The notes below the pieces were generated by a model that saw only the letters and a list, made by a program, of their open reading frames with translations, ran no database searches and was not told the DNA's origin. Below, one piece after another: positions 15,074 through 44,682 of a stretch of 55,462 bases of DNA. Source of the DNA: a virus; the IMG/VR virus record IMGVR_UViG_3300035182_000695, positions 90,755-146,216 of that record; one strand, given 5' to 3'. The position numbers and the translations under genes are program-made. The first letter of the stretch is position 1; each line of letters starts with the position of its first letter.

Positions 15074-15277
15074 CTATTTATTTTTTTCAACTAATTTGAC
15101 GCAGCTATTAAAGTCTTCGTACATTTTTTTACTCTCATTCATTCTTCTATCAAGCTCTCTCAGTACCTTACTCGCAACACCTAATTCGATTGATAATTTT
15201 TTTGCTCCTTTCAATCGCTTCACTTCATCGAAATATTTTTTTCTTTGTTTTCTTAAAAGTGCTAGCGATTTTTTCAT
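15074..15277 (-). CDS. small basic coiled-coil protein (67 aa)
   Basis: One Lys/Leu-rich helix with heptads (LALLRKQRKKYFDEVKRLKG ... VASKVLRELDRRMNESKKMY). No membrane segment. Two bases separate it from the next gene. Possibly a structural accessory protein; function unknown. Confidence 0.6.
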   Translation of the reverse strand: MKKSLALLRKQRKKYFDEVKRLKGAKKLSIELGVASKVLRELDRRMNESKKMYEDFNSCVKLVEKNK

Positions 15278-15279
15278 TG

Positions 15280-15507: not shown

Positions 15508-15537
15508 ACTTATTTTTGTGGCTCTATTCATTCAGTA

Positions 15538-17789: not shown

Positions 17790-17790
17790 C

Positions 17791-18228
17791 CTATTTTATT
17801 TTTTTAATTATTACTTTTTCTATTTTATCAAACTTTTCTTTATACTCTCTGTCAAATTTAATTTCTTCGTTAAGCTCTCTGTGCTGCTTTATCGCTTTAG
17901 AAACAAACAACGTGTGAATTTTACCAAAAACATCAATAGATATTTTCCTTACAGGCATTTTTAAATTAAAATGAAGTAAACAAATTGTAATTCTTCTTGG
18001 TTCCTGTATAGCTTTACTTGTACTGTTTATCAATGAATTTTTAGTTATACTGTACTCTCTGCAAACTTCATCTACAATGTGTTGTGATTTTTTAAAGCAA
18101 TCGCTTTTTTTATTCATTGACTCGATAAGTGCTGCGTTCAAGTCTTTCACGCTATACAGTTTCAGATTTTTCTTTATGTTTTCAAGCATCTCGCTTAAAT
18201 CGTGATTATCTTCTCTGACTTTGCTCAT
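17791..18228 (-). CDS. DnaA domain IV-like DNA-binding protein (145 aa)
   Basis: Residues ~46-120 follow the DnaA C-terminal pattern: IVDEVCREYSITKNSL, then an Arg-Arg helix EPRRITICLLHFN, then VFGKIHTLFVSKAIKQH, which corresponds to the DnaA signature helix G-x-x-H-x-T-V-x-x-A. No AAA+ ATPase part is present. It could recognise origin-like repeats or act as a transcription factor. The inverted GTTTAACTTA boxes lie just upstream of its own start (18257-18285), making them a candidate target (inference). The start has the AAATAAGTATG context. Confidence 0.7.
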   Translation of the reverse strand: MSKVREDNHDLSEMLENIKKNLKLYSVKDLNAALIESMNKKSDCFKKSQHIVDEVCREYSITKNSLINSTSKAIQEPRRITICLLHFNLKMPVRKISIDVFGKIHTLFVSKAIKQHRELNEEIKFDREYKEKFDKIEKVIIKKIK

Positions 18229-18256
18229 ACTTATTTTTGAAATATTTATCGACGGC

Positions 18257-18285
18257 TAAGTTAAACAAAAAACCCGTTTAACTTA
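18257..18285. promoter_or_regulatory. perfect 10-bp inverted repeat, candidate operator
   Basis: TAAGTTAAAC (18257-18266) and GTTTAACTTA (18276-18285) are perfect reverse complements with a 9-base spacer. The same decamer occurs three times at 6731-6808. It lies between divergent genes (minus 18228, plus 18360) and partly overlaps the -33 region of the plus promoter. Confidence 0.75.
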
Positions 18286-18288
18286 TGA

Positions 18289-18321
18289 TTGTTAATTTCT
18301 TTTTAAAAAGATTTATATTTG
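18289..18321 (+). promoter_or_regulatory. plus-strand promoter (TTG ... TATATTTG)
   Basis: TTG at 18289-18291 and TATATTTG at 18314-18321 match the Bacteroidota -33/-7 consensus with a 22-base gap. The predicted transcript starts near 18328, which rules out an upstream ATG at 18285 and supports the ATG at 18360 for the first plus gene. Confidence 0.75.
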
Positions 18322-18333
18322 TAGGACGTCCTA
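18322..18333. promoter_or_regulatory. 12-bp palindrome at predicted transcription start
   Basis: TAGGACGTCCTA is a perfect palindrome immediately downstream of the -7 box. GC-containing palindromes stand out in this AT-rich DNA, and the position fits a repressor site. Confidence 0.5.
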
Positions 18334-18359
18334 ACTCGACGTTATTAAAAAATAATTTT

Positions 18360-18650
18360 ATGAATACAAACGATAACTTCAATAAGAATGATAAACAAAT
18401 ACACTTCAATCAAGTGAAAGGCGTGATATTTGAAATAAACAACGATACTGAATTTTGTAGCTTAACTCTTGAACTAGGTCACGAGAATACACGTTATGCA
18501 AATTTAGTTTGCAAGAAAGGACAATTCAATCCGATGATGGAAGGATTTAAAATCGGCGATAAAGTTTCTGTTCGATATTATATTACTAGCAGAAAAAAAT
18601 TAGATAGATGGTACACCGCAGCTAATATGCTATCTGTACACAAAGATTAA
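18360..18650 (+). CDS. OB-fold, SSB-like protein (96 aa)
   Basis: Residues ~17-93 show the strand order of a small OB fold: QVKGVIFEINND, FCSLTLELGH, ANLVCKKGQFN, FKIGDKVSVRYYITSRK and WYTAANMLSV. The Gly-Asp-x-Val-x-V element and Ser-Arg before an aromatic strand recall bacterial SSB-like or DUF3127-type proteins. Probably binds single-stranded DNA in replication or recombination (inference). Start chosen downstream of the promoter. It is one of only two plus-strand genes. Confidence 0.6.
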   Translation: MNTNDNFNKNDKQIHFNQVKGVIFEINNDTEFCSLTLELGHENTRYANLVCKKGQFNPMMEGFKIGDKVSVRYYITSRKKLDRWYTAANMLSVHKD

Positions 18651-18668
18651 TCATTTAAAAAACGCACA

Positions 18669-19175
18669 ATGGCAAAGAAAATATACGGCTTCGTTAAAAA
18701 CGAAATCAATCAACCAGTTGAGTTTGCAGTAGTTTACACGTCTGACAAAAACGGAAAGCCTGTTGGCGGTAAAAGCACTCAATCTGATGAGAAAGGAAGA
18801 TTTTCTATTGATGCGATAAATGATAGTGATTTTCTAACTGCAAGTATGACTGGCTTAAAACCTTCAACAGTTAAAGCGTCTAGTGCAATAAATGTACCGT
18901 CAACTATTGGAGTAATGCCTACTGTTTTGATTAAAATGAATCCGTCAGAGTTTGCGAGCTTGCCAGAAGTAAAAGTTACGCCAAAAGAAACCACTTCTAA
19001 TCCTACTAAACCTAAACAAGTAGCTTTCGCTAAGCCTAACGAACAACAAGCGAAAGAAGAGCCTAAAAAAGAAATGAATAAGTATTTAAAATATTCATTA
19101 ATTGGTGGCGGCATATTGTTAGCGATAATTATTACTGTTGCTGTTGCTAAGAAAATCAAAGAAAAAAATAAATAA
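18669..19175 (+). CDS. carboxypeptidase-regulatory-like domain protein with C-terminal TM (168 aa)
   Basis: Residues ~2-85 fit the CarboxypepD_reg fold: IYGFVKNEINQPVEFAVVYT, a TQSDEKGRFSIDAI turn, then TASMTGLKPSTV. A Pro/Lys/Gln linker and one membrane segment (about 138-160, YSLIGGGILLAIIITVAVA) with a basic tail follow. This tail-anchor style matches the virion block at 24-4955, yet the gene lies on the opposite strand with the OB-fold gene. Perhaps a membrane-anchored adhesin-like or virion protein (inference). Confidence 0.7.
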   Translation: MAKKIYGFVKNEINQPVEFAVVYTSDKNGKPVGGKSTQSDEKGRFSIDAINDSDFLTASMTGLKPSTVKASSAINVPSTIGVMPTVLIKMNPSEFASLPEVKVTPKETTSNPTKPKQVAFAKPNEQQAKEEPKKEMNKYLKYSLIGGGILLAIIITVAVAKKIKEKNK

Positions 19176-20821: not shown

Positions 20822-23170
20822 TTATTTCAACTTAGCCAATAAAGACGTTGCGATTTGTTTCCCGTTATCGTTAAACATATCTAAAGACTTCTCTACTGTG
20901 CTTTTAAGAACGTCTTTATTTCCGTATTTCAGATTACTCGCTTCAATCCAAGGTCCTGCCTTGATTACTTTATTGAACACAGAGCAAGCTAATTCAGTTT
21001 CTTCTTGATTCAATGATGAAGTCCAGTCAGAAGCGTCGCTGTTGCTTGACGTTGTGTGTCTCTTAACAAATTCAATAACTTGGTCGTTTACTTTTTTATG
21101 GTCAGGACTATTGTATGATTCGCTTTCTCTGTTTAATGTTTTAATAAACTCCTCTGCGTTAGTTCTAGTTAAAAGAACTCTATTTATAAATTCCCTAAAC
21201 TCATCTTCTCCTCCCGAATTTTCCATTTGCTCTTCAAACTCATCAGACGCACGTTTAACAACAAGCTCTCCGTTAACACTATTATAGCACATTTCGCCGT
21301 CTTTAGTTATCCAAAAATACCAATTACCAGCGTACCCTAAGTCTTCAAAGTAACCGCCTTCTGGCAATGTCATCTCACTAGATTCAACTGACTCTTCAAC
21401 TTCATTACACTCACAATGAAATACAACTTTCTTGATTGAATCATAAGGCACTTCCGGTATTTCGCTTGTATTCAAACGCTCGTTTACAGCTAGTGCTTTT
21501 AAAGTAACAACCATCTCAGCTTCGCCTTCAAAAATAAGTTTAGAGAATATTTTTTGTTCGCTAAAAACTTGCTGCTCATCTTTATTTTCTTTGAACGAAA
21601 CTATGTAAGCGAAATGCACTCCGTATATTGTTGCGCCGTTCTCATACTCCTCTCCTTTCAAGTCTTTTTTGAAATCGGAAATTCTCTCGTCAAATTGCTC
21701 TTCTGAATAATGAAAATTACCTTCGTCATCAATTACATTGAATTTAATTGCTTTCCCGTTTAGTATAGGATATGTAAAAATTCTTGGAGCTATGTAACTA
21801 TTAAGATGCTGTGGATTAAATTTCGCAACATATTTTTTCTCTAAATCTTTATACTCATTTATTTTTAACTGTATAGCATTTGCGTTAATTGTTGCCCCTT
21901 CTCCAAATGATGAAGTGCTGTGAATTACAGTATCATCGCCTTTAGCTAGTATTACTACTGTTACATCGTAAGATTTTTTAGCTTTAAAAAATACGGCCGC
22001 TTTTACTTGTGCGCTATAAGAACTGTCTGCTCTTAAATCAATTTCTTTTCCTTTATAAAATGCTTTATAAACATTTTTTCCTTCTCCTTGAATAGTCGCT
22101 CCGTGTTCGTATTTCATATTGTATGCGCCGTCAACAATCTCGTAACCTTTCGGCATTCTCCAACCTGCATCAACTTGAACGCCACGCTTGCCTTTAGAAT
22201 AAACTTTATTTTTGTCATTGCCTTTAACTACTTTGTATCCGTGAGGCATTCTATATCCTCTGATTATACGAACTCGCTTATGTGCGTTTCCACCTTTGGC
22301 ATAAGTGTCTTCTTTAATCGATATAGTTACAGTTTTTTCATTTTTTCTACTAAACTTATATCCGTCAATTGAATTTCTGTATTTTTTCTCAAAATCATCC
22401 GCAATTTTTCTTGACATAAAATTTAAGTTAATTACATTTACGCCATTACTATCGAATGTGTTTTCAATGTTTGAAAAACGAAATGAACCAAAATTACCAT
22501 GCTCTTCTTTGAACGAAAATTTAATTTTTGCTTTTGAGAAAAAATCATCAGTAGCTCCCATATTAAAAGAATGTACACCTCCACCTTTAGCATATTCATC
22601 CCAATTTGTAGAATTTTCTAACCAGTCTTCGTATGATTTAGAATTAACGAACTCTAACCAAGAATCAGAAATGTGTTCACTAGCAGCATCAGTAACATCT
22701 AAATCGTGTATGAATGCGTCTTTTTGTGATTGCGATAATTGACTCCAAATTCTAGTTGCTTCGCTATGGTCATCAGGAAAGTTTGCGTAAAGCTCTTCAA
22801 AGTCATCTTGTGAACCCCAACTAGAATCAATAACTCCGCCTTTAGCGAGCTTTACAGTTTCTTTAGCTTGAGCATTTTTGAAAAACAATGGCCATAATTT
22901 TTTAGATAACTTACTTCTCTCTTCGCTAAGTTTGTCAGATAAATATTCTTCTGCTCTGTGCTGTTCAAAAATTTCAATAGCTTTCGCAACGTCTTCTTTA
23001 GAGCCTACTGTTGAAGCATACAATACAACTAACTCAGAATTATAATTATCGTCTTCGTACTCTTCGTAAAGCTCCCAAGTTTTATTTTCTTTTATAGCTT
23101 GTTTTATTTCTGCTAAAACTCGCTTCGAGTGAGAATCTGTTTTTTTAGATGTTCTTTTTTTATTAGGCAT
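20822..23170 (-). CDS. large modular 'polyvalent'-type protein (782 aa)
   Basis: A chain of small domains separated by short Gly-rich linkers of the form (Y/L)-A/E-K/H/N-G-G/A: LAKGGVI (~111), YAKGGGV (~194), YAKGGNA (~290), YEHGATI (~355), YENGATI (~509). The region about 296-358 (RGYRMPHGYKVVKGNDKNK ... AGWRMPKGYE) is an internally repeated module that also occurs in the 530-aa neighbour. A WSQLSQSQKDAFIHDL unit near 165 matches WDSWTIRQKNHFLNDH at the start of that neighbour. The C-terminal domains are acidic and unrecognised. Polyvalent proteins of phages are thought to be delivered into the host with the DNA (established proposal); membership here is inferred from architecture. Confidence 0.7.
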   Translation of the reverse strand: MPNKKRTSKKTDSHSKRVLAEIKQAIKENKTWELYEEYEDDNYNSELVVLYASTVGSKEDVAKAIEIFEQHRAEEYLSDKLSEERSKLSKKLWPLFFKNAQAKETVKLAKGGVIDSSWGSQDDFEELYANFPDDHSEATRIWSQLSQSQKDAFIHDLDVTDAASEHISDSWLEFVNSKSYEDWLENSTNWDEYAKGGGVHSFNMGATDDFFSKAKIKFSFKEEHGNFGSFRFSNIENTFDSNGVNVINLNFMSRKIADDFEKKYRNSIDGYKFSRKNEKTVTISIKEDTYAKGGNAHKRVRIIRGYRMPHGYKVVKGNDKNKVYSKGKRGVQVDAGWRMPKGYEIVDGAYNMKYEHGATIQGEGKNVYKAFYKGKEIDLRADSSYSAQVKAAVFFKAKKSYDVTVVILAKGDDTVIHSTSSFGEGATINANAIQLKINEYKDLEKKYVAKFNPQHLNSYIAPRIFTYPILNGKAIKFNVIDDEGNFHYSEEQFDERISDFKKDLKGEEYENGATIYGVHFAYIVSFKENKDEQQVFSEQKIFSKLIFEGEAEMVVTLKALAVNERLNTSEIPEVPYDSIKKVVFHCECNEVEESVESSEMTLPEGGYFEDLGYAGNWYFWITKDGEMCYNSVNGELVVKRASDEFEEQMENSGGEDEFREFINRVLLTRTNAEEFIKTLNRESESYNSPDHKKVNDQVIEFVKRHTTSSNSDASDWTSSLNQEETELACSVFNKVIKAGPWIEASNLKYGNKDVLKSTVEKSLDMFNDNGKQIATSLLAKLK

Positions 23171-23189
23171 TGTCTTGTTTTTTAAATTA

Positions 23190-24782
23190 TTATACCGCTG
23201 TTAATTCTTGTGCAATAGTTCTCATTTCGTCTGGATGACTCTGACCTGCTGCGTAAGTAGCTCTGTCTCCATCGAATGAAAATCTTTTTGCAAACCAAGC
23301 GTTTTTATATTTTTGTAACCCGTAATTGATAACAGATTTTAAACTTCTTAATTTTTTCTCACTACGAAGTCCTTTAGATAGCATTGCATACATTGAATCT
23401 CTTTGCTCTTTAGTCAATTCATCTTTTTCTAAAAGTGCGTGTAATGTTCTTTCGTTTATCGGTGTATGTGATTTTTTCTTAATAGCTTCGATAGCGTTAT
23501 TTGCTTTTTGCCAAGGCGCTGTTCCTTTTTCAAAAACATCTCTTTCTTTTTCTAAAGATTCAATTGTAGCTCCTTTAGCGTATTTTTGAATGTACGCAGC
23601 TTCTACTGTTTCGTAACCGTGAGGCAATCTCCAACCAGCATCAACTTTAACTTTCGGTTTTCCTTTCGAGTAGTTTTTATTTTTGTCATCTCCCTTAATC
23701 GCTTTATATCCTTTCGGTAAACGATGTCCTTTAGTTACAGAGACGTGTTTTTGCCCTTGAACATTGGCGCCACGCTTGTACTCTTCTGGCTCTTCATAAT
23801 CATTTATATCAAGACCTATTTGTTCGTAAGCCCACGCTTTGTTTTCGTGAGTAGTTGATGTACCCATAATGTCATCAGCTCCGAAATAAGTAAATATTTC
23901 GCCTAACTTATTAACGAAAGATTTTTTCAACCACTCTTCTTTTGAGCAACCACAAGAATCTAAAAATCCTTTGATGTCTTCTTCTTTAGCCCATTCTTCT
24001 CCGTTAATTAGTTTATCCAAAGATGATTCAAGAACGTAACCATAATTATAAGATTGCTCTCCAACTTTACTAATTACAAAGTGTTCGCCTTCTTCTGTAC
24101 AGTTTTCGTTTACAGTTGCAACAAATCCATACTCTTCAAGCGATGTCATTAGATTTACATCAGTACCCTCCCAATCGCTTTCTATTGTAGCTCCTTTAGC
24201 ATATTGCTCATAGTGATAGGCTTGTAAATATAAATCGAATAAAGAACTAGCTTGGCTCACTTTGCCGCCGCTTCCTGCGTTTCCGCCATAAGTAAATCTA
24301 AATAAGTTTTTAAAGCGATTGCTTTTTATGGCATCACACATTTCAACTAAATACTCTTTAATGAATTTATTTGATATTGTGTTTACTAATGCACAAAACT
24401 TTTCAAAGTTTGCTTTTGAAGCTTCTTTGTGTGCGATTTTTTCCATTTCAACAAATGGTTTTTCGTCAACAACTTCAACACTATTTTCAATTATTCTATC
24501 TAAAATTCCATCACGAATTAAATCGAAATCTTTTTGAGTATTCTTAGGCTCTTGCTTAGCTGTTTTCACAACGGCTCCTTTAGCATACTTTCCTGTTGCT
24601 ATATGTTTTTCAATTGCCGATTTTATATCGCTAGACAATTCATCAAAATCTTTACTTATTGCGCTTGCAATAGCAGATGTTTTTACTTCTGACTTATGGT
24701 CATTTAAAAAATGATTTTTTTGTCTGATTGTCCAAGAATCCCAAATTTCAGATGCCGAACCAGTGTATTTTTCTGTACTCAT
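23190..24782 (-). CDS. large modular 'polyvalent'-type protein (530 aa)
   Basis: Linker motifs KYAKGAVV (~68), YAKGATI (~195), YKRGANV (~340) and YAKGATI (~400) divide it into modules. Residues ~343-402 (KGHRLPKGYKAIKGDDKNK ... AGWRLPHGYETVEAAY) duplicate the module in the 782-aa protein. The N-terminus carries a WDSWTIRQKNHFLNDH unit, and the C-terminal module (about 404-530, HTPINERTLHALLEKDEL ...) is helical. No enzyme motif is visible. It probably acts with its neighbours as an injected or replication-associated protein (inference). Confidence 0.7.
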   Translation of the reverse strand: MSTEKYTGSASEIWDSWTIRQKNHFLNDHKSEVKTSAIASAISKDFDELSSDIKSAIEKHIATGKYAKGAVVKTAKQEPKNTQKDFDLIRDGILDRIIENSVEVVDEKPFVEMEKIAHKEASKANFEKFCALVNTISNKFIKEYLVEMCDAIKSNRFKNLFRFTYGGNAGSGGKVSQASSLFDLYLQAYHYEQYAKGATIESDWEGTDVNLMTSLEEYGFVATVNENCTEEGEHFVISKVGEQSYNYGYVLESSLDKLINGEEWAKEEDIKGFLDSCGCSKEEWLKKSFVNKLGEIFTYFGADDIMGTSTTHENKAWAYEQIGLDINDYEEPEEYKRGANVQGQKHVSVTKGHRLPKGYKAIKGDDKNKNYSKGKPKVKVDAGWRLPHGYETVEAAYIQKYAKGATIESLEKERDVFEKGTAPWQKANNAIEAIKKKSHTPINERTLHALLEKDELTKEQRDSMYAMLSKGLRSEKKLRSLKSVINYGLQKYKNAWFAKRFSFDGDRATYAAGQSHPDEMRTIAQELTAV

Positions 24783-24812
24783 TTTATTTAATTTTAGTTG
24801 TTTATTTTTAAT

Positions 24813-25448
24813 TTACGATAACATAATCTCAGCCATATCAAAAGTGTCCTGCCACTCTTGTCTTTCTTCACTAGACAAGTCATCTGAATCTAGCATAATA
24901 GTTGCCATATCCAATTGGTCTTGCCACTCTTGTCTTTCTTGCTCAGGCGTAGCGTCTTCTACTTTGAATTTATTTGTTACTGCATCAATAACAAATTTAG
25001 GAACTTCATTTTTTAATCCGCCTAACTTAATAGCATTTTCCCATAAAATATCCGCAAGCTCATTGAACTTTTTTGTAGCATTTTCGTCTTTATGAGCGTC
25101 TGAAAAATTGTACCCTATGTACATATCAACCCACTCGAATAAAGTTGTTCCTGCGATTGTTTTCTTGTCTGCGTACAATTCTAAATAGCGTCTAACAATC
25201 CACCATTCTCTTAACTGAGCATCTACAATTATGTCTTTACATAATGCTTTAAATATTGATAAAACTAATCTATCATCTGATAGAGTTACTTTATCTTCTG
25301 CTCCGTTTTCTTTAATGAATTCGTTTAGCTTATTCATTTTAACAAGCCAAGGCTCGCCAAAATACTTTGATGTTATGTTAGGTTGTATCGCATCAACAAT
25401 TTGTGAAAATTTGAAGTCTGCTGAGTTTATTACAATTGCGTTGTTCAT
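24813..25448 (-). CDS. helical protein with C-terminal W-x-MLDSD repeats (211 aa)
   Basis: A mostly helical domain (about 15-160) is followed by two tandem ~24-residue repeats, EWQDQLDMATIMLDSD and EWQDTFDMAEIMLS. The same repeat pair ends the 837-aa protein at 31693-34206. It lies between the 530-aa protein and the SBNO helicase in the polyvalent cluster. The repeats could be a common targeting or docking tag (inference). Confidence 0.65.
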   Translation of the reverse strand: MNNAIVINSADFKFSQIVDAIQPNITSKYFGEPWLVKMNKLNEFIKENGAEDKVTLSDDRLVLSIFKALCKDIIVDAQLREWWIVRRYLELYADKKTIAGTTLFEWVDMYIGYNFSDAHKDENATKKFNELADILWENAIKLGGLKNEVPKFVIDAVTNKFKVEDATPEQERQEWQDQLDMATIMLDSDDLSSEERQEWQDTFDMAEIMLS

Positions 25449-25463
25449 CGTTTTTATATTTTG

Positions 25464-28400
25464 TTATGCTAATAATTTTACTAATTCGTCAATTTTAGAA
25501 TCTAACATTTTTTCTAATTCGCCTTCAATAGATGAATCAAATGTTACTTCCTCTCCTTGTACTTGAGCAACTTCCATTTCGTCAATAAATTGTTCTAACA
25601 CATACATACTAGAAGCTTTAGAGAAGAATTCGCTACCTATCGCAAAAGACGGTCTTGATTTTCTCGCATCAAGGTCTTTGATTATAAGTATGAACTCATC
25701 AAATGTCATAATTACTCTGTTAGTCCATTCAATTGAACTGTTTCTTCCGCTTTGTAAGTCAACTACATTTGTAGGAAATATTTGTTTGAATAATAATCCA
25801 TTTCCAATATAGTATTGTTTTTTGCGGCCGTCGTTTTCAATATTCGGGAATAAATTACTCTTATTTCCTGGTTTGTAATTTTCACTATTTATGTTAACTC
25901 CTTGTTGCTGTAATAGCATTGCGAAGCCATCAGAATAATTAATACTTGTTGTAATCAACTCTACTGTTAAGTTAGAGCAGAATGTGTCGAAATCAATTTC
26001 TTCTAAATGTTTAATTCTCTTCTCGCTAGTAACAATATCTAATGTTTTGTCAAACTCTTCGATTAAATAAGAACTCGGTTTTATAATAACGCCTGAGAAT
26101 CCTATTTGACTAGATATTTGGAATAAGAATTCTATACCGCCATTACTTCTTTGAAGTCTGTGTTCCCACTTATCAACTTCTGTTGAATTTTTATGCAAGT
26201 CGTAAAGCTTGCCAAACATAAACCAATAAACATACTTAGTAATTAAGTTGTTTACATTGTTAGGGTTACCGTCAAAGTAAACAGGATATTGTAATGAGTT
26301 GTTAACAGAATAACGCTCTTCTAAAGAAGTGTAAGTTCCTTTAGTTGGATTGTTAGGGTCTATTTTATTTGTTATCTCAATTCCAATTCTTCCCTTATTG
26401 TCAGATGTAGTGTACTTAGTTATTGTTCCATTAAGTCCATTTTGTTTAGACATAATGAATGTTTTAAGTAATGTACCTGCTATGAACCATTTAGTCTCTT
26501 TGTATGAGTTGTCTTGTTTACCAGCAATATCATTCCAAACATCTTTGTAGTTAGGCGCAAAGTTTGTTAAGCTAATTGTATTTTTATAACCAAGTGCTTT
26601 TTGCTCTTCTCTTATTTTTTTATGCAATTTCGATAAAGGCAATTTGTCTTTTCTTGAAACGAATGTAAAATAAACATCAAAACTAGAAGGGGTTAAATCA
26701 TCTCCATCGTAAGGGAAAGTAACACCAGTTATAACACAAGGCTCGGAAACAACTTCTTGATAAGAAACTTTCTGAACATCAACTTGAAGCTCTCCTGTTT
26801 CGTTTTCATAATGTTTCGTTTCTTTTAATTCAGAATACATAACAACAGAACCAATTCTATTTACATAGTCTTTACAAGTTGCGTTTAGCTCGTTCCATTC
26901 TTGCATAGCTTGAGTGTAAGAAACTATTTTTGTTTTAGCTCTCTCAATATCACTCTCGATTGCTTTTATCGCTCTCGTTGTTAATCTGTGTTTTGTTTTC
27001 TCTTCTGAAATATCGCCGAATGATTCCATTTTTTTCAACAACCCTACTTGCGTTTGTTTCAATGGAGCCATTTCAGTACCGTATTTAATTAATCCGTCTG
27101 TATCTCCCGATGTTGCGCATTCGGTAATTTTATTGTTGATTTCTCTGATTTTCTCAGCGTTCTCATCCATTTGTTTTTCAATTTCAATAGCTTCTAAAAG
27201 ACTACCAAAACCAACAAGTTTTTTTCTCTCTACTGCTAACTCAGCTTCTGATTCCGCAATATCATCATTAACTTTTTTAACTGTTTCAAGTTGAGTTTTT
27301 TGTTTCGCTAAATGTTGTGCATCTAACGCTCTGTTTGCTTCTGCTTGAAACAAAGGAATAGAACTAAAGAATCTTAAATCAGATTTCTTTTTATGGTCTT
27401 CTCCATCATTTTCAGTTGAATCGCTAGCATAATCAGTTAACTTCAAATACAATCTTTCATCTATCGCTTGAGCAATTTGCTTATCGATATTTTTACTTCT
27501 GTATTGAGTTACAATTGACTCTTCAATAAATCCGTGTCTTCCAAATGAAGTTCTAGCATTTTCATCACCAATAAAGAAAGGGTATTTATTAACTAACTCA
27601 GCTTTGTAATCTTTCGATGACATTTTACCGTTATAAAGTCCTTGAGCTGTTAATCGAATAATCTCTGCGTTTAATCGCTTAGAGAATGTTTCGTAAAAAT
27701 TCTTTTGGAAATCAAAATCAGAGAAATACAATCCTTTTGTGTACTCTTTAATGTCGTTAGGATTATCTTTACCGGCTCTATCTCTTTGATTTAAGTCTTT
27801 CATTGTTTCATTGAATGGCTCTATTGCTACTGTGCTATAAAAGTCATCTGATGTAAACATATAAGAAGATTGCGTTTGCTCTGCGCTCACGTTTGCAGAT
27901 AAAGAACGAAGTTTACGTTCCATTAATGCTGTTAATCTAGCTTCTGACGGAATTGCAGATATAATGTAAAAGAACTCAGGTTGATAAACTTGTCCTGTTC
28001 TATTGATACGACCTAATTTTTGAACTTCTTTGCTAATATCCAACTCCATTTGAGTAATAATCATAGCACGCTTTTTAACTTCTGATTTATCTTTCAGAGT
28101 CAATGGCGCATTTTCGATTGTTACTTCTTTTCCGTTTTCATCAACAACTGTTGTAGGCTCGTAAACTTTATGTGCAATAGCGTTCGGTACTGCGTGCATG
28201 GAAATACCAACAGCTCCACTTTGATTGATTAATAAACAATCAATTTTGTTTTCGTTAAACTCCCTTACTAATGTTGTTGTTGGTTTAATATCTCTTTTAG
28301 CAATAACACCTTTAGAGAAATCGTTTCCTGAGAACTCAACACATAACTGTCTTCCAGTAATTTCATTTACGGAATAACCAGCGTCTTTTATTTTACGCTT

Positions 28401-30947
28401 AATCTCATCGATAGGCGCAATAGAAACTCCGGTTGTTGTATCTAATATTTCAGTAAGCAATGCTTTGTATCTAACAAGTAAAGCATCTCTTATTTCTTCC
28501 GATAATGGGTGTTTGTCGCCAAGAACAAAAATTGTTTTTTCAACTTCTGTTTTAGTTCCATCAGATTCTACTTGCTCAACAACTCTGTTCCATCTTAACG
28601 TATAATTTAATAAGTAAGCTATGTATAATTTGAAATCGTTTTCAATTTCATCTCCAACTCTATACTTATCAGTATCATCTTTACCATCACTTAAAAATGT
28701 TTTTGACATATTGTTAAGCGCCGACTCCATTGTATTAGCGACAGTAATAACAGTTTTTTTACCGCTATTCAATTTGTCAAGTGAGAAGCCAACTGTTTGT
28801 TGAACTTTTAAACCAAGTAAGAAAAAGTTGAACATTTGGAATGTCAGAGCTTTAATAGTTCTTGACTTATTAATCTCATCTTTCGAGCCTTCTAATTTAT
28901 CTCCGTTTTCAGCTCTTGTTGGTAAATCTTCTTTATATTCTTTAACAATATCGTGAACAGAAACTTGAAAATCTCTTATTTTAGAAAATAAATCAGCAAC
29001 TTTATTCATTCTTAATCGTTGTTGAACACCAACAGGGTCAGACTCTTCATCTTTAGCATAATAGTACTCAGATTTACCTTCAATTTTTTTCTCACGTCTT
29101 AACAACTGTCCGTTTCTTGTTAATTCAACAGATACAGCTTCTTGTAACGCCGTCTCTCCTTCTAAGAAAGCCATAATCATTTCAACATCAGATAAGCCAG
29201 ACTCACGCATACTCGTTTTCATTGCGTATAAAGGCATATTAGATGCTCTCTTAGCATAAGTAGCTGACAAGTAAGTAGTCATTGCACTACTCTTGATTAT
29301 TTGAGATAAAATGAAGAATGTATTTGATGGTTTTCCAGGTTCGCCGCCACTAGCAGTATGACTTTCATCAAGTATAACAACGCTATTGTTTGCGTATTTT
29401 AAATACAATTTAATTCCTGGTTTCAAGAATTGTTTTCCAGCTTTTTTTGAAGAGTATGGTGATTTTGTTTGACTATAAGGAATAGTAAACAACTTGTATT
29501 TGCTAGGTAAATTTAATGCAGACGGAGAAACTTCCCAATCCGGCTCAAGCTTCATTCCAACTTTTTTGTACGCTAAAATAGTTTTCATTTCAGCGTCAGT
29601 CATTCTACCGTAAAGAATATTACCGTTTATATCAACGATGTCGCCTCTGTTAGGGAAATAAGGCTCGACAATTATTTTACCTTCTGTTTGTGCGTGTAAA
29701 ACTTGCTCAGCGTAATTCATATTTTTCTCGAAAGAATCTTTTGAATAACCCTCTTCTGTAAATTTCATTCTGTACAATTCAATTAACTCATCCATTACGG
29801 TCAAAATTTGCTCGTAATTTTTATCAGCTTCATTGTGTACGTTTCTAAGCCACTCAATCTCGAAGTTATCAGCGAAGTCATACTCCACACGAACATCTCC
29901 GTCGTCTTTGATGTCTTTCAAAATAATTTTCACTAACTCTTCGTCAGTAAATTCAGTTTTGGTTGAAGTTACATTTTTCTTGAATTCTTGAGGAATACCC
30001 GCATCAAATCCAATTGCAATTAAATCTCTGTAAATATCGTTTATTAAATGTTTCTTCTCTGTGAAAAAGAATGGAATAACATTTAATTCTAAATACGCAT
30101 ATCTTATTAATCCGGCTGCTTGTCTACCTTTACCAACGCCTGTTTGGTCAGCAATGATAATCGCATCTCCTTTTTCTTCGTAGTTAAATATGGCCGTTGC
30201 AATTGCATCAATTTGTTCTTGAGCAAAACGAACAATTTGCTTTCTATCTTTTAATAAATTTCTCCAATCTGGACTAGAGTAGTCAACGGTTTCAGGACCG
30301 TAGCATAAATCATCAACTGATTTGTAGTGTAGTTTTTTTGCTACATACTGTTCAACAGTCATTCCGTATTTATCTAATAAGAATGATTTTAAATTTTGAT
30401 TGAATCGTCTTTGCTCATTAGCCATTGAAGACGGAACGTGAGTGTCAAGCGATATGCAAATATCAGAAGATGCTGGATAATATTTCGTTTGGATTTCGCC
30501 ATCCGTATTACCGCCGTCTTCAAATTTCTCAGGCTCGTTAAGATACATATTTAATTTATCAATAACAGCGTCTTGAGTTTTAGCTTTAAAGCGTCTTAAC
30601 TTAGGCAAAGAACCTGCAATTTTTTCAACAGTACCGTTTTTATATAAGCTAATCTTAGCATATCTCGAATTGTTAACGATTCCGTTTTTCCACTCATCTG
30701 GTTTATCCATAGATAAAGTAATAGACACAGAAACATTTTCATTTCCACCTAAAGTAGAAAAGCTACACGAAACATACGGTGCTTTTATTTCAGATTTTAT
30801 TTTTTCAACGAAATCTTTAACGCTATCTATATTGAAAACCTCGCCTACATTTCCGCCGGTCTCTTGTTTATCAATACAGCCACCACCGCAAAACAATTCC
30901 GGTTGTTCTTTGTAAAATTTAGAATCACTATTCTCCATTTTTTTCAT
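25464..30947 (-). CDS. strawberry-notch (SBNO) type helicase, very large (1827 aa)
   Basis: Superfamily-2 motifs are clear. Walker A DQTGVGKGRQ (267-276) has the GVGKGRQ form typical of strawberry-notch proteins. DESH (527-530) serves as motif II, motif III resembles TYLSATYAKRAS, and SGAVGISMHA (~909) and KLGRINRTGQVYQPEF (~980) form the C-terminal RecA-fold motifs with an arginine finger. An N-terminal ~150-residue module ends in a FEDGGNT linker, and a long C-terminal half (about 1150-1827) is unrecognised. SBNO helicases are frequent in phage polyvalent proteins. Likely remodels or protects phage DNA after entry (inference). A TATATTTG box lies 16 bases upstream. Confidence 0.9.
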   Translation of the reverse strand: MKKMENSDSKFYKEQPELFCGGGCIDKQETGGNVGEVFNIDSVKDFVEKIKSEIKAPYVSCSFSTLGGNENVSVSITLSMDKPDEWKNGIVNNSRYAKISLYKNGTVEKIAGSLPKLRRFKAKTQDAVIDKLNMYLNEPEKFEDGGNTDGEIQTKYYPASSDICISLDTHVPSSMANEQRRFNQNLKSFLLDKYGMTVEQYVAKKLHYKSVDDLCYGPETVDYSSPDWRNLLKDRKQIVRFAQEQIDAIATAIFNYEEKGDAIIIADQTGVGKGRQAAGLIRYAYLELNVIPFFFTEKKHLINDIYRDLIAIGFDAGIPQEFKKNVTSTKTEFTDEELVKIILKDIKDDGDVRVEYDFADNFEIEWLRNVHNEADKNYEQILTVMDELIELYRMKFTEEGYSKDSFEKNMNYAEQVLHAQTEGKIIVEPYFPNRGDIVDINGNILYGRMTDAEMKTILAYKKVGMKLEPDWEVSPSALNLPSKYKLFTIPYSQTKSPYSSKKAGKQFLKPGIKLYLKYANNSVVILDESHTASGGEPGKPSNTFFILSQIIKSSAMTTYLSATYAKRASNMPLYAMKTSMRESGLSDVEMIMAFLEGETALQEAVSVELTRNGQLLRREKKIEGKSEYYYAKDEESDPVGVQQRLRMNKVADLFSKIRDFQVSVHDIVKEYKEDLPTRAENGDKLEGSKDEINKSRTIKALTFQMFNFFLLGLKVQQTVGFSLDKLNSGKKTVITVANTMESALNNMSKTFLSDGKDDTDKYRVGDEIENDFKLYIAYLLNYTLRWNRVVEQVESDGTKTEVEKTIFVLGDKHPLSEEIRDALLVRYKALLTEILDTTTGVSIAPIDEIKRKIKDAGYSVNEITGRQLCVEFSGNDFSKGVIAKRDIKPTTTLVREFNENKIDCLLINQSGAVGISMHAVPNAIAHKVYEPTTVVDENGKEVTIENAPLTLKDKSEVKKRAMIITQMELDISKEVQKLGRINRTGQVYQPEFFYIISAIPSEARLTALMERKLRSLSANVSAEQTQSSYMFTSDDFYSTVAIEPFNETMKDLNQRDRAGKDNPNDIKEYTKGLYFSDFDFQKNFYETFSKRLNAEIIRLTAQGLYNGKMSSKDYKAELVNKYPFFIGDENARTSFGRHGFIEESIVTQYRSKNIDKQIAQAIDERLYLKLTDYASDSTENDGEDHKKKSDLRFFSSIPLFQAEANRALDAQHLAKQKTQLETVKKVNDDIAESEAELAVERKKLVGFGSLLEAIEIEKQMDENAEKIREINNKITECATSGDTDGLIKYGTEMAPLKQTQVGLLKKMESFGDISEEKTKHRLTTRAIKAIESDIERAKTKIVSYTQAMQEWNELNATCKDYVNRIGSVVMYSELKETKHYENETGELQVDVQKVSYQEVVSEPCVITGVTFPYDGDDLTPSSFDVYFTFVSRKDKLPLSKLHKKIREEQKALGYKNTISLTNFAPNYKDVWNDIAGKQDNSYKETKWFIAGTLLKTFIMSKQNGLNGTITKYTTSDNKGRIGIEITNKIDPNNPTKGTYTSLEERYSVNNSLQYPVYFDGNPNNVNNLITKYVYWFMFGKLYDLHKNSTEVDKWEHRLQRSNGGIEFLFQISSQIGFSGVIIKPSSYLIEEFDKTLDIVTSEKRIKHLEEIDFDTFCSNLTVELITTSINYSDGFAMLLQQQGVNINSENYKPGNKSNLFPNIENDGRKKQYYIGNGLLFKQIFPTNVVDLQSGRNSSIEWTNRVIMTFDEFILIIKDLDARKSRPSFAIGSEFFSKASSMYVLEQFIDEMEVAQVQGEEVTFDSSIEGELEKMLDSKIDELVKLLA

Positions 30948-30962
30948 TTTTAAATTATCCTA

Positions 30963-30970
30963 CAAATATA
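30963..30970 (-). promoter_or_regulatory. candidate -7 box for the SBNO helicase gene
   Basis: Minus strand TATATTTG, 16 bases upstream of the ATG at 30947, in a 72-base gap after the protease gene. The short leader fits a promoter that starts very near the gene. No clear -33 element. Confidence 0.5.
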
Positions 30971-31019
30971 ACATAATTACTTTTAATAAATCACTAAAGT
31001 TGAACTTCATCGATTTTTT

Positions 31020-31682
31020 TTATAAGGTGTTTTCAACAATTACGGGTTTATCACATTTCACACATTTTACTGCAAAATTCATAAAATTACCATAGGCTTT
31101 GTGTCCGCAATTAAAGCACTCGTATCTATAATTCTTGAAAGATTCTTTATAATTCGCTCCTTCATAGTATCTTGAGCAACCGCCGGCACTACCTCTGATT
31201 GCTGAGCAAACTAAACCCCAAACTTTACCGTGTCCTTGAGTTGAAAAATGCTCAGAATCTACTGCTTTCAAATCTCTTTGCGAAAACGAATTGCTAGGAC
31301 TAAATATCTCGAAAACTATTGCGTGCGCTATCTCGTGTAGAATAACACCATCCATTTGTTTTTTCCAGTTCTCATCGTGTTTAACAAAATCGATAGATAT
31401 GAATATGTTTTTAGTCTTCGATAGTGCCACTTGGTCTAGCGATGCGTTGCAAAGTCCAGCCCACTCCTTAGAAGTTCCAAATTGAAATCTCCATCCTCGA
31501 TTGTAAAGATTCATTTCTTTTATGTTCTGAATATAAGGCTGTAACGCTTTAATATCTTTTATGCTATCGTAGTAATCAACAGCGATAAGTTTGTGTCCCG
31601 CATCAAATGTTTCTTCGACGTTCTCGGAATCTATTTTTTGTTTTGGCAGCTGAAAGCTTCCCATTAAATCATCAAAACTCAT
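31020..31682 (-). CDS. SprT-like zinc metalloprotease (220 aa)
   Basis: The catalytic motif HEIAH lies at 116-120 and the third ligand in GHGKVW at 150-155, as in SprT/SPRTN enzymes. A C-terminal zinc ribbon follows with Cys189, Cys192, Cys207 and Cys210. Bacterial and eukaryotic relatives act at DNA or on DNA-bound proteins. Here the gene lies inside the polyvalent cluster, so candidate substrates are the linker-punctuated giant proteins or host DNA-binding proteins (inference). Confidence 0.85.
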   Translation of the reverse strand: MSFDDLMGSFQLPKQKIDSENVEETFDAGHKLIAVDYYDSIKDIKALQPYIQNIKEMNLYNRGWRFQFGTSKEWAGLCNASLDQVALSKTKNIFISIDFVKHDENWKKQMDGVILHEIAHAIVFEIFSPSNSFSQRDLKAVDSEHFSTQGHGKVWGLVCSAIRGSAGGCSRYYEGANYKESFKNYRYECFNCGHKAYGNFMNFAVKCVKCDKPVIVENTL

Positions 31683-31692
31683 TTTTTTTATT

Positions 31693-34206
31693 TTAAATTT
31701 CTAACATCATCTTCGCTGTTTCTAACTGCGACAGCCATTCGCTTTTTTCTTCTGCTGAAATATCTGAATCAAGCATCATTTGCGCCGTTTCAAGAACTTC
31801 TTGCCATTCTTTATTTATTTCTTCTTGAGTTGTTTCTTTTTTCACCTGTGCAACAATTTTGTTTTTTCTAACAACTTGTTTGCTTTCTGATAAAGGAATC
31901 CAAAACTCATTATGCTTTCTTTCATAGCTAACATATATGTCAACTGTATTAGAATTCAATTTGCTTAATCTCTGCTTTAACTTAGTTGCACTTCCGATAT
32001 ATATACCTCTAGTTGTATCAAGTTGCTTAGGCTCGCTTAAATCGTGTATTTTATACATTCCTTTAAGCACTTCTCCGCCTATCATAATTTGATTTCCAAC
32101 TATGTGTATTGTCTTGTTTCCTTTTTTATCAATATTTGTCAAATCGGATAAATAAAACTCGATTATTTTACTTGACATTTTAGGAAGTGTTCCTTCAATG
32201 AATGGATATTTAGATGAAGACTTTGTTACAATCATATCAAACTCGTACCCGCTAATTGAACACATTTCGTTATCTGATTTTATAACTAATGGCTGCTCGT
32301 CAAAAGCTGCTAGAATTTTCGCAACAACTTTAGGACTTTCCATTGTTATAACATATCTCTCAACACTCGACTCTACTGTTATTTCATTCTTATACAAGCA
32401 TTGTGCATCTGTGCCTATAACTTGCATTTTATTTTCGGTAAATGTAAAGTTTGCGCAATTAAACGCAGGTCTGAAATCATCTCTTTCAATGAATAGGTTT
32501 GCATAATTCAATTGATATAAGAAGCTCCCCGAATCTACTACTGCAATTGATTTAGATTCTTTTGATAACGGTTTTATTCTCGGATAGCTATCTACATCAA
32601 CATCTGATTTTCTTAAATAGCCATCTAAATAAAAATAAGTTCCGTTTTCTATTTGTTTTGAAACTGGCATTGATACTTGAACATTATTATCTGTAATGTA
32701 TAAATTACCGTCCTCAATTAATGCGCAGTCTAGTATATAAGAGCCTGTATTTTTCTCAGTAAATATTTTAACTACGCTGATTGTTTTTTCGTTTATGTAC
32801 TCTGGATAAAAATCTTTCGGTTGATATTCTTTAACTATCGAATCATCTGCATTATGTATCTCACTATCTTTTAAATCAAAGTAACAAGAATTACTAACAG
32901 AACCGTCAATCTCTCTAGCGCCAACGAAATCGTCGTATGCCATAACAGGCATTTGAAGAATTAATATGGAATCTTTTTTGTTAAATGCCGTGTGCGGCTT
33001 ATCTGCCACAGCGGCATCAGGCGAAATTATAACCGCTCTGCTTGCGCTATCAGAAAGACCGAAGTAAGCAACAGTTTCATTTAAAGATATTAGCGTCTCG
33101 CAAATGTCAATTAAAAATAATGAATTGAATGCGTAAATTTTATCTCTACCGTATGCTAACTGAACGTGAAAGTTACTTTTATTTACATAGTTTTGACAAG
33201 CTGCTAAATAAGTGTATAGCTTGTTTATGTCTATCTCGCAAACAATATCAGACTTAGTTGGAACGACAGCTTGATAGTTTGGATAATTTCCGTCAATCAA
33301 TCCTTTTTTTGTCTTCTTAATCTCTTCTGTTCTTGCGTGTTTTGACAATGGATAAATACCTCTAATAGAATGCTTGCCTTGCTTAAAAAATAATCTATGA
33401 GCGTCAGTTGCAGTAATACCAAACTCATCAAAATAAGTGCCCGACATTACAGGTCTAAGAGAATCTCCGCCTGTGAATATGTCAGATATTTTTTGAATTG
33501 CTTTGTCTTGCGGATTTAATGAGTGAATTTTTATAGTAGAAATGTTTTTTGTTTTTTTCCATATCTCAGGAATCTCGCTCCACTTTGTAACTATTGCGTT
33601 ATCTAAGTTTGTAGATTTTAATTCTTGCGTTTTAAAATCCCCTCCTTTTGAAAACTGAGGAGTGAACTCATTTAGTTGGCATTTACCTTGAGATAGCTCA
33701 GAATGAGCGGCGCCGTTTAAAAGCCAATTACACTTGCCTTGTTCGTTTTTAGTCCCCCAATGATTCGCTTGTCTTATAACAGAATCGCTTTCATACCAAT
33801 ACTTACTACCTGATTCAGAAACATAGTCAGGCTTCTTTTCAGGAACATTATCAATTGATTTAAAGTTTGCAGATGTGTTTACATGAAAATTATCAAAACT
33901 AATTTTGTCTATCGTTGCACCCTTTTCAAATTGAGGCTCGTGAATGGGCGCTCCGCCGCCAGCACTTTGGTTTATTTCATTTAATTTTCGCCAATGTTTC
34001 TTTGCTGCGTGTTTATTTATAATCACCTCCCCGTTTTCCACTAAAATCGGTCTTTTATCTTCAATCACAATAGCTTTAATTCCACCGCCTTCGTCTGAAT
34101 GAGCTTTTCCAATTAATAACCCGCCGCTACTAGCATCTTTACTAATTTTTAATTGGCTTCCGTTTTTAGATGTGTCTATAACACCATCAGTTTTATAATT
34201 TTCCAT
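31693..34206 (-). CDS. polyvalent protein with two sliding-clamp-like modules (837 aa)
   Basis: The N-terminus (LLIGKAHSDEGGGIKAIVIE ... ENGEVIINKHAAKKH) is a module seen at the start of phage polyvalent proteins, and linkers FEKGATI and FSKGGDF follow. Two regions then resemble DNA polymerase III beta-clamp segments. Module 1 has RPVMSGTYFDEFGITATDAHRL (247-272, TDxHR motif) and YPNYQAVVP (308-316). Module 2 has RPAFNCANFTFTEN ... GTDAQCLY (598-605) and YPFIEGTLP (667-675). The C-terminus carries two EWQ..L..A.MML-type repeats. A phage-encoded clamp fused to a delivery module would be unusual; the clamp assignment is by motif only. Confidence 0.7.
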   Translation of the reverse strand: MENYKTDGVIDTSKNGSQLKISKDASSGGLLIGKAHSDEGGGIKAIVIEDKRPILVENGEVIINKHAAKKHWRKLNEINQSAGGGAPIHEPQFEKGATIDKISFDNFHVNTSANFKSIDNVPEKKPDYVSESGSKYWYESDSVIRQANHWGTKNEQGKCNWLLNGAAHSELSQGKCQLNEFTPQFSKGGDFKTQELKSTNLDNAIVTKWSEIPEIWKKTKNISTIKIHSLNPQDKAIQKISDIFTGGDSLRPVMSGTYFDEFGITATDAHRLFFKQGKHSIRGIYPLSKHARTEEIKKTKKGLIDGNYPNYQAVVPTKSDIVCEIDINKLYTYLAACQNYVNKSNFHVQLAYGRDKIYAFNSLFLIDICETLISLNETVAYFGLSDSASRAVIISPDAAVADKPHTAFNKKDSILILQMPVMAYDDFVGAREIDGSVSNSCYFDLKDSEIHNADDSIVKEYQPKDFYPEYINEKTISVVKIFTEKNTGSYILDCALIEDGNLYITDNNVQVSMPVSKQIENGTYFYLDGYLRKSDVDVDSYPRIKPLSKESKSIAVVDSGSFLYQLNYANLFIERDDFRPAFNCANFTFTENKMQVIGTDAQCLYKNEITVESSVERYVITMESPKVVAKILAAFDEQPLVIKSDNEMCSISGYEFDMIVTKSSSKYPFIEGTLPKMSSKIIEFYLSDLTNIDKKGNKTIHIVGNQIMIGGEVLKGMYKIHDLSEPKQLDTTRGIYIGSATKLKQRLSKLNSNTVDIYVSYERKHNEFWIPLSESKQVVRKNKIVAQVKKETTQEEINKEWQEVLETAQMMLDSDISAEEKSEWLSQLETAKMMLEI

Positions 34207-35120: not shown

Positions 35121-35137
35121 ATGTAAAAAATTTACAT
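35121..35137. promoter_or_regulatory. 7-bp perfect inverted repeat, candidate operator
   Basis: ATGTAAA-aaa-TTTACAT occupies the position of the -33 region of the preceding box and touches the stop codon of the RusA gene. It may be bound by the HTH/nuclease protein itself or by the XRE repressor (inference). Confidence 0.5.
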
Positions 35138-35619
35138 TATTCGTAAATAAGTATAGAGCCTTTATAAGCATATCTTTTTTGTGCATTTACACTCCAAACC
35201 ATGCCATCTTCTTTCAATAAAGAATCCATTAAAAATTTTAAACAATTATCGACATCCGGGCGACTTTTGTTTGGCATTCCATTCATACGTTCTTTTTTCT
35301 TAGACGACCAACTGTCAGGCATAGGCATAAAGAACACGACCTCTAAATGATTGCCTATTTTAAATCCAGTCTTGTTACAAGTTTCTACAACTTTATTCTT
35401 GGCTTCAAAGTACCTGCGCACACTATCTCGTTGGCGCTTTTTTGGGTCTTTGTGGTTTGGGTTTGTTTTCCACTTATCGCTTTGCGTCATTCTTACCGCA
35501 CCCATAGGTACAACATCAATTAGATGATACTTTCTTGAATAATCAACTACATACTTAGATTCATCTAAAATAGTCGTTGTGCCTTCGTTTAATTCGCTAA
35601 CGCCGATACTTTTACTCAT
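35137..35619 (-). CDS. rusA: RusA-like Holliday-junction resolvase (160 aa)
   Basis: The RusA pattern is present: a beta start (HLEVVFFMPMPDSW), then SRPDVDNCLKFLMDSLLKED with the catalytic Asp pair (PD-x-DN) and Lys, then a strand ending in an aromatic/Lys segment (NAQKRYAYKGSILIY). RusA cuts four-way DNA junctions during recombination and packaging. Its start codon shares one base with the preceding stop (TAATG), so translation is coupled to the 72-aa gene. Confidence 0.85.
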   Translation of the reverse strand: MSKSIGVSELNEGTTTILDESKYVVDYSRKYHLIDVVPMGAVRMTQSDKWKTNPNHKDPKKRQRDSVRRYFEAKNKVVETCNKTGFKIGNHLEVVFFMPMPDSWSSKKKERMNGMPNKSRPDVDNCLKFLMDSLLKEDGMVWSVNAQKRYAYKGSILIYE

Positions 35620-43492: not shown

Positions 43493-43816
43493 CTATTTTT
43501 TTTCGTTTTTGGTTATGTCTTCGCTATCAATGTGAGACTTGCATTTATTGCAGTAAAAGAATTCAACTTCATTTCCATTCATCTTTGCTCTTATTGAATC
43601 TCCGCAGCAATCGCTTTTCATTGTCTTCGCTCCTGTGTTATCGTTTTCGACAACTAAATATTCTGTTTTTCTTTTACCATAAAGGTCATCCATCATTTTA
43701 TCTGAAAAATATAATGAGTGATGTAATATAGCCCTAACCGCTAGAGTTAATGGCGCTAAGCAGAATCCAATAGCTACAAATATATGCTGAATTATAAATC
43801 TAATAATCAAAATCAT
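43493..43816 (-). CDS. membrane protein with zinc-ribbon-like tail (107 aa)
   Basis: An N-terminal hydrophobic region (about 1-30, LIIRFIIQHIFVAIGFCLAP) is followed by a charged region and a C-terminal zinc-ribbon-like pattern with CC (about 70) and CNKC. The start overlaps the RecE-like stop by 4 bases (coupled translation). Function unknown. Confidence 0.6.
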   Translation of the reverse strand: MILIIRFIIQHIFVAIGFCLAPLTLAVRAILHHSLYFSDKMMDDLYGKRKTEYLVVENDNTGAKTMKSDCCGDSIRAKMNGNEVEFFYCNKCKSHIDSEDITKNEKK

Positions 43817-44682
43817 TTTAATAGTGTTATGTGTGGAGAATTATCTTTAATGTTAAAGAAATTATTTAATTGCTCAAGCTCGTAGCATTCTTTTAAAAGC
43901 TCGAATTCATTATAGTTGCACCAGTATTCGTTTTCATAAGACCACTTTAATAAATCTAAAGCCATTCTAAATGTTCTTTTGCCAATTTCGCACATTGCAT
44001 CATCTATTCTGTATAAACTGATTTGATGAGGTTCTGTTTTTTCAACTGCGCAAAAAATATAATCTTCCCTATTCGCAAAGTGTTTATAAAAAGCGTCTGT
44101 GATAGGATAGCCATAAGTAATTGCATCTCGCTTGAATCCTTTAGGGCTTCCGTCTTTCGCTGTCTTGATGTCAATTATTGTTGTTTCATCATCACACATA
44201 ACATCAGGACGAAGTTTTATTTTCAATCCAGTCGGTTCATCAATTGTGTATATGCTCACTTCTCTTGCGCTGTTTTGCATCAAATCGATAAGAGTTTTAT
44301 TTTTGAGCGCAGACTCACACATCTTAACGAGCGAATCCATTTCACTATCCAAAATTATACTCTTGTCTTTGTTTTTGCTATTAAACTCAGCGAACTCAGC
44401 CTTTCCGTCTTTTGTTCTTCTGTTCATTTCTGGAGCAACAACGTAATTTTTAAAGAACTCGTGAGGCTCTAATATACATTCGTGTAACGCTGAACCTAAA
44501 ACAAAATGTCTGCCTACAACTTCTTTTTTTGTTGAAGTTGTTTTTTTAGCAACCTTTCCATACTTCTTATAGTAGTAATACATAGGGCTTCTTGCGAAGT
44601 TCTTAGCATCAGAAGCACTAATGAAGTCTTTCTTACCTAAATAGGTACTGAAACTATCCTTTGTATATTCGATTTCTTGCAT
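43813..44682 (-). CDS. RecE-like exonuclease, PD-(D/E)XK fold (289 aa)
   Basis: The pattern fits exodeoxyribonuclease VIII: GSALHECILEP (His67), a mid helical part, TGLKIKLRPD (Asp160), then TTIIDIKTAKD (Asp171-x-Lys173) and a YGYPITDAFY helix with VEKTEPHQISLY. These residues form the metal-binding PD-(D/E)XK site that degrades the 5' strand of dsDNA ends. No RecT/Erf-type annealing protein is recognised beside it. Likely used in recombination or replication-coupled repair. Confidence 0.8.
   Translation of the reverse strand: MQEIEYTKDSFSTYLGKKDFISASDAKNFARSPMYYYYKKYGKVAKKTTSTKKEVVGRHFVLGSALHECILEPHEFFKNYVVAPEMNRRTKDGKAEFAEFNSKNKDKSIILDSEMDSLVKMCESALKNKTLIDLMQNSAREVSIYTIDEPTGLKIKLRPDVMCDDETTIIDIKTAKDGSPKGFKRDAITYGYPITDAFYKHFANREDYIFCAVEKTEPHQISLYRIDDAMCEIGKRTFRMALDLLKWSYENEYWCNYNEFELLKECYELEQLNNFFNIKDNSPHITLLK

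Follow-up and report, generated by a model that had tools for sequence, protein, structure and literature searches.

Domain-level mosaicism is well documented in phages, and its joints are usually invisible. Among the closest described systems are the polyvalent proteins, which carry many unrelated enzymatic and adaptor domains on one polypeptide (Iyer et al. 2017, PMC5512222); the word 'linker' is absent from the main text of that study, and no joint motif was found described there. Short conserved boundary sequences, proposed for the junctions of phage mosaics, represent a further parallel, and most such junctions are noted to have none that can be recognised (PMC3029335). Recombinases of the RecT/Redbeta type carry out relaxed recombination and tolerate diverged sequence (PMC3945230). 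Shuffling of domains within genes has been described for phage proteins, those of the tape measure and of DNA metabolism among them, in a main text without mention of linkers (Smug et al. 2023, PMC10684548).

The window, meaning the whole stretch of DNA analysed here, comprises the last 55.5 kb (90755–146216) of a 146,216-bp virus record. Within a neighbourhood of replication and recombination genes, it encodes a cluster of modular proteins (Table 1). Like polyvalent proteins, these combine unrelated domains, most clearly in their relatives, which have modules of polyvalent type, namely ART-PolyVal, GNAT, Strawberry-notch helicase and adenine methylase. As with boundary sequences, a short repeated sequence lies at the joints of exchanged modules, but here the boundary is intragenic, translated, conserved as a peptide, and joins domains rather than genes. 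RecT is likewise found in several of the linker-bearing phages, and, in contrast to the shuffling described previously, the breakpoints have one consensus. Since this consensus is translated and shared, the joints can be read directly, which makes exchange measurable and open to laboratory testing. Judged from sequence comparison, the linkers are probably the joints of a domain-exchange system in mosaic phage proteins, as homology breakpoints coincide with them.

Table 1. Features of the modular cluster and of the surrounding genome (positions are those of the window unless another record is named)
Feature	Position	Strand	Remarks
782-aa modular protein, six linkers	20822..23170	-	C-terminal module common to L008 685 aa and L061 564 aa
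Linker YENGATI@509, 782 aa	21626..21646	-	
Linker FGEGATI@422, 782 aa	21887..21907	-	
Linker YEHGATI@354, 782 aa	22091..22111	-	
Shared module KRVRIIRGYRMPHGYK..NMK, 782 aa, linker each side	22112..22282	-	also in 530-aa protein and L008/L061
Linker YAKGGNA@290, 782 aa	22283..22303	-	start of homology to 530-aa protein
Linker YAKGGGV@193, 782 aa	22574..22594	-	
Linker LAKGGVI@108, 782 aa	22829..22849	-	
530-aa modular protein, four linkers	23190..24782	-	
Linker YAKGATI@401 (TACGCTAAAGGAGCTACAATT), 530 aa	23562..23582	-	
Shared module KHVSVTKGHRLPKGYK..IQK, 530 aa, linker each side	23583..23759	-	
Linker YKRGANV@335, 530 aa	23760..23780	-	homology breakpoint
Linker YAKGATI@194 (TATGCTAAAGGAGCTACAATA), 530 aa	24183..24203	-	
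Linker YAKGAVV@66, 530 aa	24567..24587	-	
211-aa protein	24813..25448	-	homology to C-terminal portion of the L008 717-aa and L061 409-aa proteins
1827-aa Strawberry-notch-type SF2 helicase, one linker	25464..30947	-	AAA_34 E 1.1e-11, Helicase_C_4 E 1.8e-10
Linker FEDGGNT@142, 1827 aa	30504..30524	-	
SprT-like metallopeptidase, 220 aa, intact	31020..31682	-	PF10263 E 1.6e-6
837-aa protein: EGGEV-type module, linkers, beta-clamp-like region, EWQ tail	31693..34206	-	
Sliding-clamp-like region, 837 aa	32176..33480	-	phrog_947 E 4.8e-11, phrog_6615 E 2.7e-7, PDB 8dt6 (beta clamp) E 2.3e-6
Linker FSKGGDF@185, 837 aa	33634..33654	-	
Linker FEKGATI@93, 837 aa	33910..33930	-	
EGGEV/GEVIINK module, 837 aa	33931..34128	-	also C-terminus of tape-measure proteins, unrelated phages
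RusA-type Holliday junction resolvase	35137..35619	-	adjoins cluster
PDDEXK (DUF3799) nuclease	43813..44682	-	in 9/15 linker contigs; near RecT in L008
SYA[SG]G proteins	1-14, 1013-1795, 5583-6341 (genome 90352-90765, 91767-92549, 96337-97095); genome 82195-82734; L035 18595-19164		

The preliminary description of this DNA had listed five open reading frames, all of which are present on the minus strand, and had noted short recurring motifs in four of their products. The motif observation is real: the pattern [YF][AEKS]xG[GA] occurs 12 times in seven cluster proteins, against 0.90 in shuffled sequences (2000 shuffles; largest count 6), and is at background in the remaining ORFs of the 146-kb genome (5, with 5.8 expected). 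Two proteins, of 782 and 530 aa, account for the enrichment and are the only ones with a significant excess when tested singly with a looser pattern (p 0.001 and p <0.001, respectively). The linkers of the 1827- and 837-aa proteins, one and two in number and near the N-termini, are not significant alone (p 0.25 and 0.17).

The 782- and 530-aa proteins have in common a module flanked by linkers on both sides. Neither of these proteins, nor the 211-aa protein, gave any Pfam match at E ≤0.1, so that the known LPD and polyvalent Pfam domains were not encountered in these three. No viral relative was found with the 530-aa protein as scan query, module A2 matched sister phages only, and module A7 had no relative among the genome contigs. 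AlphaFold models of the 530-aa protein and of a 717-aa protein from the relative L008 (mean pLDDT 34 and 38, respectively; shallow alignments) were set aside. A tandem tail of the form EWQ..L..A..ML was observed at the C-termini of the window proteins at 24813–25448 and 31693–34206, as well as in L008 (15310–17463) and L061 (13756–14985), and is possibly a sorting or binding tail.

In contig L008 the helicase is 49% identical to that of the window, the gene order around the SprT-like gene is kept, and the linkers read YAKGSTI. Further linker-bearing contigs were obtained from scans with the EGGEV module, the SprT-like protein, the helicase and a DUF3140-like module, and the later tests were performed on 15 such contigs, window included, all metagenome assemblies and mostly fragments. 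Over 132 linkers in these 15 contigs the consensus is [KER][YFM][AEK][KDQ]G[GAS][NET][IVL][EKD], with the core form [KER][YFM][AEK][KDQ]G[GAS]x[IVL], upholding the earlier claim that a single linker consensus recurs across otherwise unrelated modules at domain borders. At the alignment position of FEDGGNT, helicase relatives have MAEGANI, YDLGSNV or YEDGGNI. Some proteins end precisely at a linker (DIRMKKGGKL, DIRFKKGGKL).

The label of polyvalent proteins, also given in the preliminary description, fits the relatives well and the window proteins less directly. Several disparate domains are combined in the 717-aa protein of L008 (ART-PolyVal and DUF3140), in a linker-carrying 988-aa protein of L084 (clamp-like, ART and GNAT modules) and in L094 (DUF3140 and an N6 methylase), the extreme being a 2180-aa protein of L092, in which the motif is matched 13 times and modules of DUF3140, DUF5824, ART-type and GNAT character occur. 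Among the window proteins, that of 837 aa is alone in combining a recognised module with a recognised fold, those of 782 and 530 aa being modular but without an assigned fold. The linker as a general feature of polyvalent proteins was rejected, as no excess of the strict motif was found in L064–L083, L085–L088 or the Bacteroides and crAss-like proteins tested; L084, from the same scan, has linkers. The giant helicase-containing polyvalent proteins of L064–L083 and L085–L088 had no linker enrichment (0.2–1.6x), indicating that the joints characterise a single virus group rather than polyvalent proteins as a whole. Near the C-terminus of tape-measure-type proteins of other phages (L022, L024–L026, L029, L031–L033 and L038), the EGGEV module also occurs, with an F/Y-x-x-GG peptide after it.

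The position of the linkers relative to homology breakpoints provides the main evidence that they are module joints. At ≥45% identity, 24 of 53 collapsed breakpoints fell in a 14-aa linker window, with 5.2 expected (maximum 13 in 2000 draws), and at ≥55% identity 21 of 37 did so, with 3.9 expected (maximum 12), although related contigs were counted separately in these tests and exact probabilities are not to be over-read. With the addition of five later contigs, 35 of 102 breakpoints lay in the 14-aa window (8.9 expected; maximum 20). The five later contigs alone gave 12 of 40 at ≥40% identity (3.5 expected; maximum 10) and 9 of 34 at ≥45% (2.9 expected; maximum 9), and both these contigs and the nucleotide-level comparison below agree with the first result. 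BLAST with masked linkers was not counted, because alignments are broken by the masking as such; from it, the control motif alone was used, which, at equal frequency, coincided with 4 breakpoints (7.1 expected) and showed no association. Many breakpoints lie away from linkers.

Domain assignments are consistent with this placement, linkers bracketing several Pfam domains, such as DUF3140, DUF5824, ART and GNAT, at about 1–30 aa. Inside Pfam domain envelopes there were 4 of 46 motif matches against 7.6 expected, by itself a weak test. Linker-bounded modules recur in different genes and orders, and the N-terminal module of the 1827-aa helicase is exchangeable when compared with relatives. The location at domain borders, which had been read from the window alone, therefore holds when relatives are considered, through both the breakpoints and the bracketed domains.

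At the nucleotide level, the clearest exchanges are found among relatives rather than in the window, which is only ~50% identical to its closest kin. Between L008 and L061, the closest sister pair, the aligned blocks have 12 ends within modular genes, 10 of them ≤12 nt from a linker, against 1.1 for random placement (maximum 6 of 5000) and 1.8 for placement restricted to the modular genes (maximum 7). Two L008 segments, 17525–17791 and 18146–18706, are each 96.6% identical to the adjoining L061 segments 15222–15488 and 15465–16025, which overlap only in a single L061 linker. The extra 355 bp in L008 correspond to two modules and are delimited exactly by identical 21-nt linker copies, TACGCTAAAGGCTCTACTATT. 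In the helicase N-terminal modules the difference between the two phages lies precisely between linkers (L008 9383–10016), and a third module difference of the same form is found at L008 18915–19303. A module of an L008 311-aa gene is found in an L061 409-aa gene (83.9%), and comparison of L009 with L013 revealed a second module switch at a linker. While short repeats can mislead the assembly of metagenomes, swaps between diverged phages are not so explained.

The same short DNA thus recurs at joints with unrelated flanks, both at the L008/L061 junctions and within L008, where two genes contain between them five 21-nt copies of TACGCTAAAGGCTCTACTAT(T/A) that encode YAKGSTI and are identical over 20 nt. 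The exact 20-mer was also observed in the unrelated contigs L040 (336–355) and L042 (164–183), encoding YAKGSTIG in a probable virion protein; this match is perhaps due to chance. For the window, purely DNA-level copying of linkers was rejected: synonymous codon agreement was 169 against 178 expected, with no concordance beyond codon usage. A modest excess was confined to L008 (p 0.011), L061 (p 0.04) and L009 (p 0.04), and within-phage likeness of linkers was weak overall (2.11 against 1.92 of 8). In L092 the GG pairs are written with many codons. That the window and L092 keep the peptide while codons vary shows that it also has some role at the protein level; recent exchange copies DNA, and over longer times selection keeps the peptide. 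An internal ribosome-binding site, suggested by AAAGGAG in a window linker, was rejected because the L008 form of the linker lacks AAAGGAG.

In the mechanism proposed for these joints, each module of a mosaic protein would end in a glycine-centred connector of the core form given above, and the connectors would be the sites of in-frame insertion, loss, swapping and movement of domains between genes of related phages. Exchange of modules by recombination at the linkers has the best support. Recent exchanges may run by annealing at the short linker repeats, and the connector peptide probably acts as a flexible, universally compatible tether that would make any in-frame exchange tolerable. RecT was identified in 6 of the 15 linker contigs, the DUF3799 PDDEXK nuclease in 9, and RusA in the window and L008, and in several of the phages these genes are close at hand. 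RecT-type recombinases may act at these linkers; RecT was not found in the window's own genome. A hydrophobic-xxGGx-hydrophobic pattern would be unnecessary in a hinge that is simply flexible, which counts against the tether, and conservation of the peptide is not wholly accounted for by a hinge of this kind.

This tighter pattern is among the points in favour of cleavage, in which the linkers would be sites for a second zincin, or for a capsid protease, and precursors would be cut into their modules. The zincin in question is a 265-aa protein with an HEFSH site, encoded just left of the window (genome 89551–90330; L007:13536–14333, minus strand), for which there was no Pfam or PHROG match. 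Each of the seven linker contigs of ≥48 kb has it, and it was found in 0 of 8 contigs that lack linker enrichment, among them contigs of 119, 158 and 251 kb. The proteins ending at a linker are as expected from cleavage, and several probable virion proteins have, after acidic stretches, an N-terminal SYA[SG]G that resembles YAKGG and is possibly a propeptide site (Table 1). Against this, the residue preceding GG is not fixed (K, D, Q, E or N), and all seven contigs apparently belong to one virus group, with a DUF87/HerA-like ATPase in common (window 15538–16392), so the zincin may be just a core gene of the lineage. Cleavage as the explanation of the linkers is considered unlikely, although, if they are cut, the second zincin would be a better candidate than the SprT-like protein.

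The seven contigs possibly represent an undescribed virus group. A tblastn comparison of their ATPase with 50,697 phage records gave no match, and Terminase_6N, the one terminase model used, was detected in a tailed-phage control and in none of the seven contigs; a PHROG match to the terminase large subunit (E 4e-6) points against absence of a terminase. In L096 the ATPase homologue has a TAG stop within an otherwise conserved 655-aa frame, which may be recoding or a sequencing or assembly error.

It is also doubtful, and somewhat less probable than cleavage, that the motif is a docking peptide, a short linear motif that would bind a putative shared partner (the clamp or helicase, for example) and be located at borders through a need for exposure. 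The hydrophobic anchors flanking the glycines, and a peptide kept while codons change, would suit docking, which alone does not explain the exact breakpoints or the identical 21-nt copies. A combination of roles appears similarly improbable: the linker DNA would serve as exchange joint and the linker peptide as a cleavage site for the second zincin, and not for the SprT-like protein, with the delivered precursor falling into single effectors. If this were true, a newly acquired domain would automatically bring its own release site.

The SprT-like gene of the cluster had been proposed to encode the processing enzyme. Its assignment was confirmed (PF10263, 28.4 bits with a cut-off of 25.6), and the protein has the HEIAH zinc site, later His and C-terminal Cys4 typical of SprT/Spartan metalloproteases; H116, E117, H120, H151, C189, C192, C207 and C210 are invariant in six relatives, a point in favour of processing. 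It differs in forming a phage-lineage subfamily, whose profile had no sequence match in the PDB at E ≤0.01. The gene lies between those of motif-bearing proteins, in an order conserved in L008, L009, L010/L061, L014 and L015, the linker peptide is conserved beyond its DNA, and processing of polyvalent proteins by zincins has been proposed (Iyer et al., PMC5512222), all of which speak for processing.

Co-occurrence of protease and sites was, however, not found. Close SprT relatives, in a conserved position beside the helicase, are present in 6 of the 15 linker contigs (window, L008, L061, L009, L014 and L015) and in one of the seven of ≥48 kb, with none above cut-off in the other nine (L013, L018, L020, L021, L084, L092, L094, L095 and L096), all of which are fragments and cannot prove absence; sub-threshold hits in L084 and L094 correspond to the second zincin. 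Linker density does not follow the gene, being ~2x in L014 and L015, which have it, and ~6x in L092, which does not. Distant SprT relatives occur in other phages without linkers (L049–L059), and a linker homologous to FEKGATI follows the same EGGEV module in the tape-measure proteins of unrelated phages. SprT-type proteases such as SPRTN are described as DNA-dependent proteases of DNA-protein crosslinks (PMC5127644, PMC5128726). Such a role accords better with the neighbours of the gene, which encode a helicase, a clamp-like protein and RusA, and it is more likely, by analogy, that the SprT-like enzyme is a DNA-repair protease of this type than a linker processor. That the linkers are protease sites of a delivered multi-domain precursor cut by this protein is thus highly improbable.

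As joints of domain exchange, the linkers offer a simple way to divide large uncharacterised phage proteins into modules for annotation. They also separate two questions that had been merged, one about the evolutionary assembly of such proteins, the other about their possible cleavage in the cell. Elsewhere in the genome, three ORFs (332–1594, 25755–26873 and 61419–62660) have N-termini resembling TnpB/IS605 OrfB, and a tRNA-Gln (TTG) gene is located at 11248–11320 of the window.
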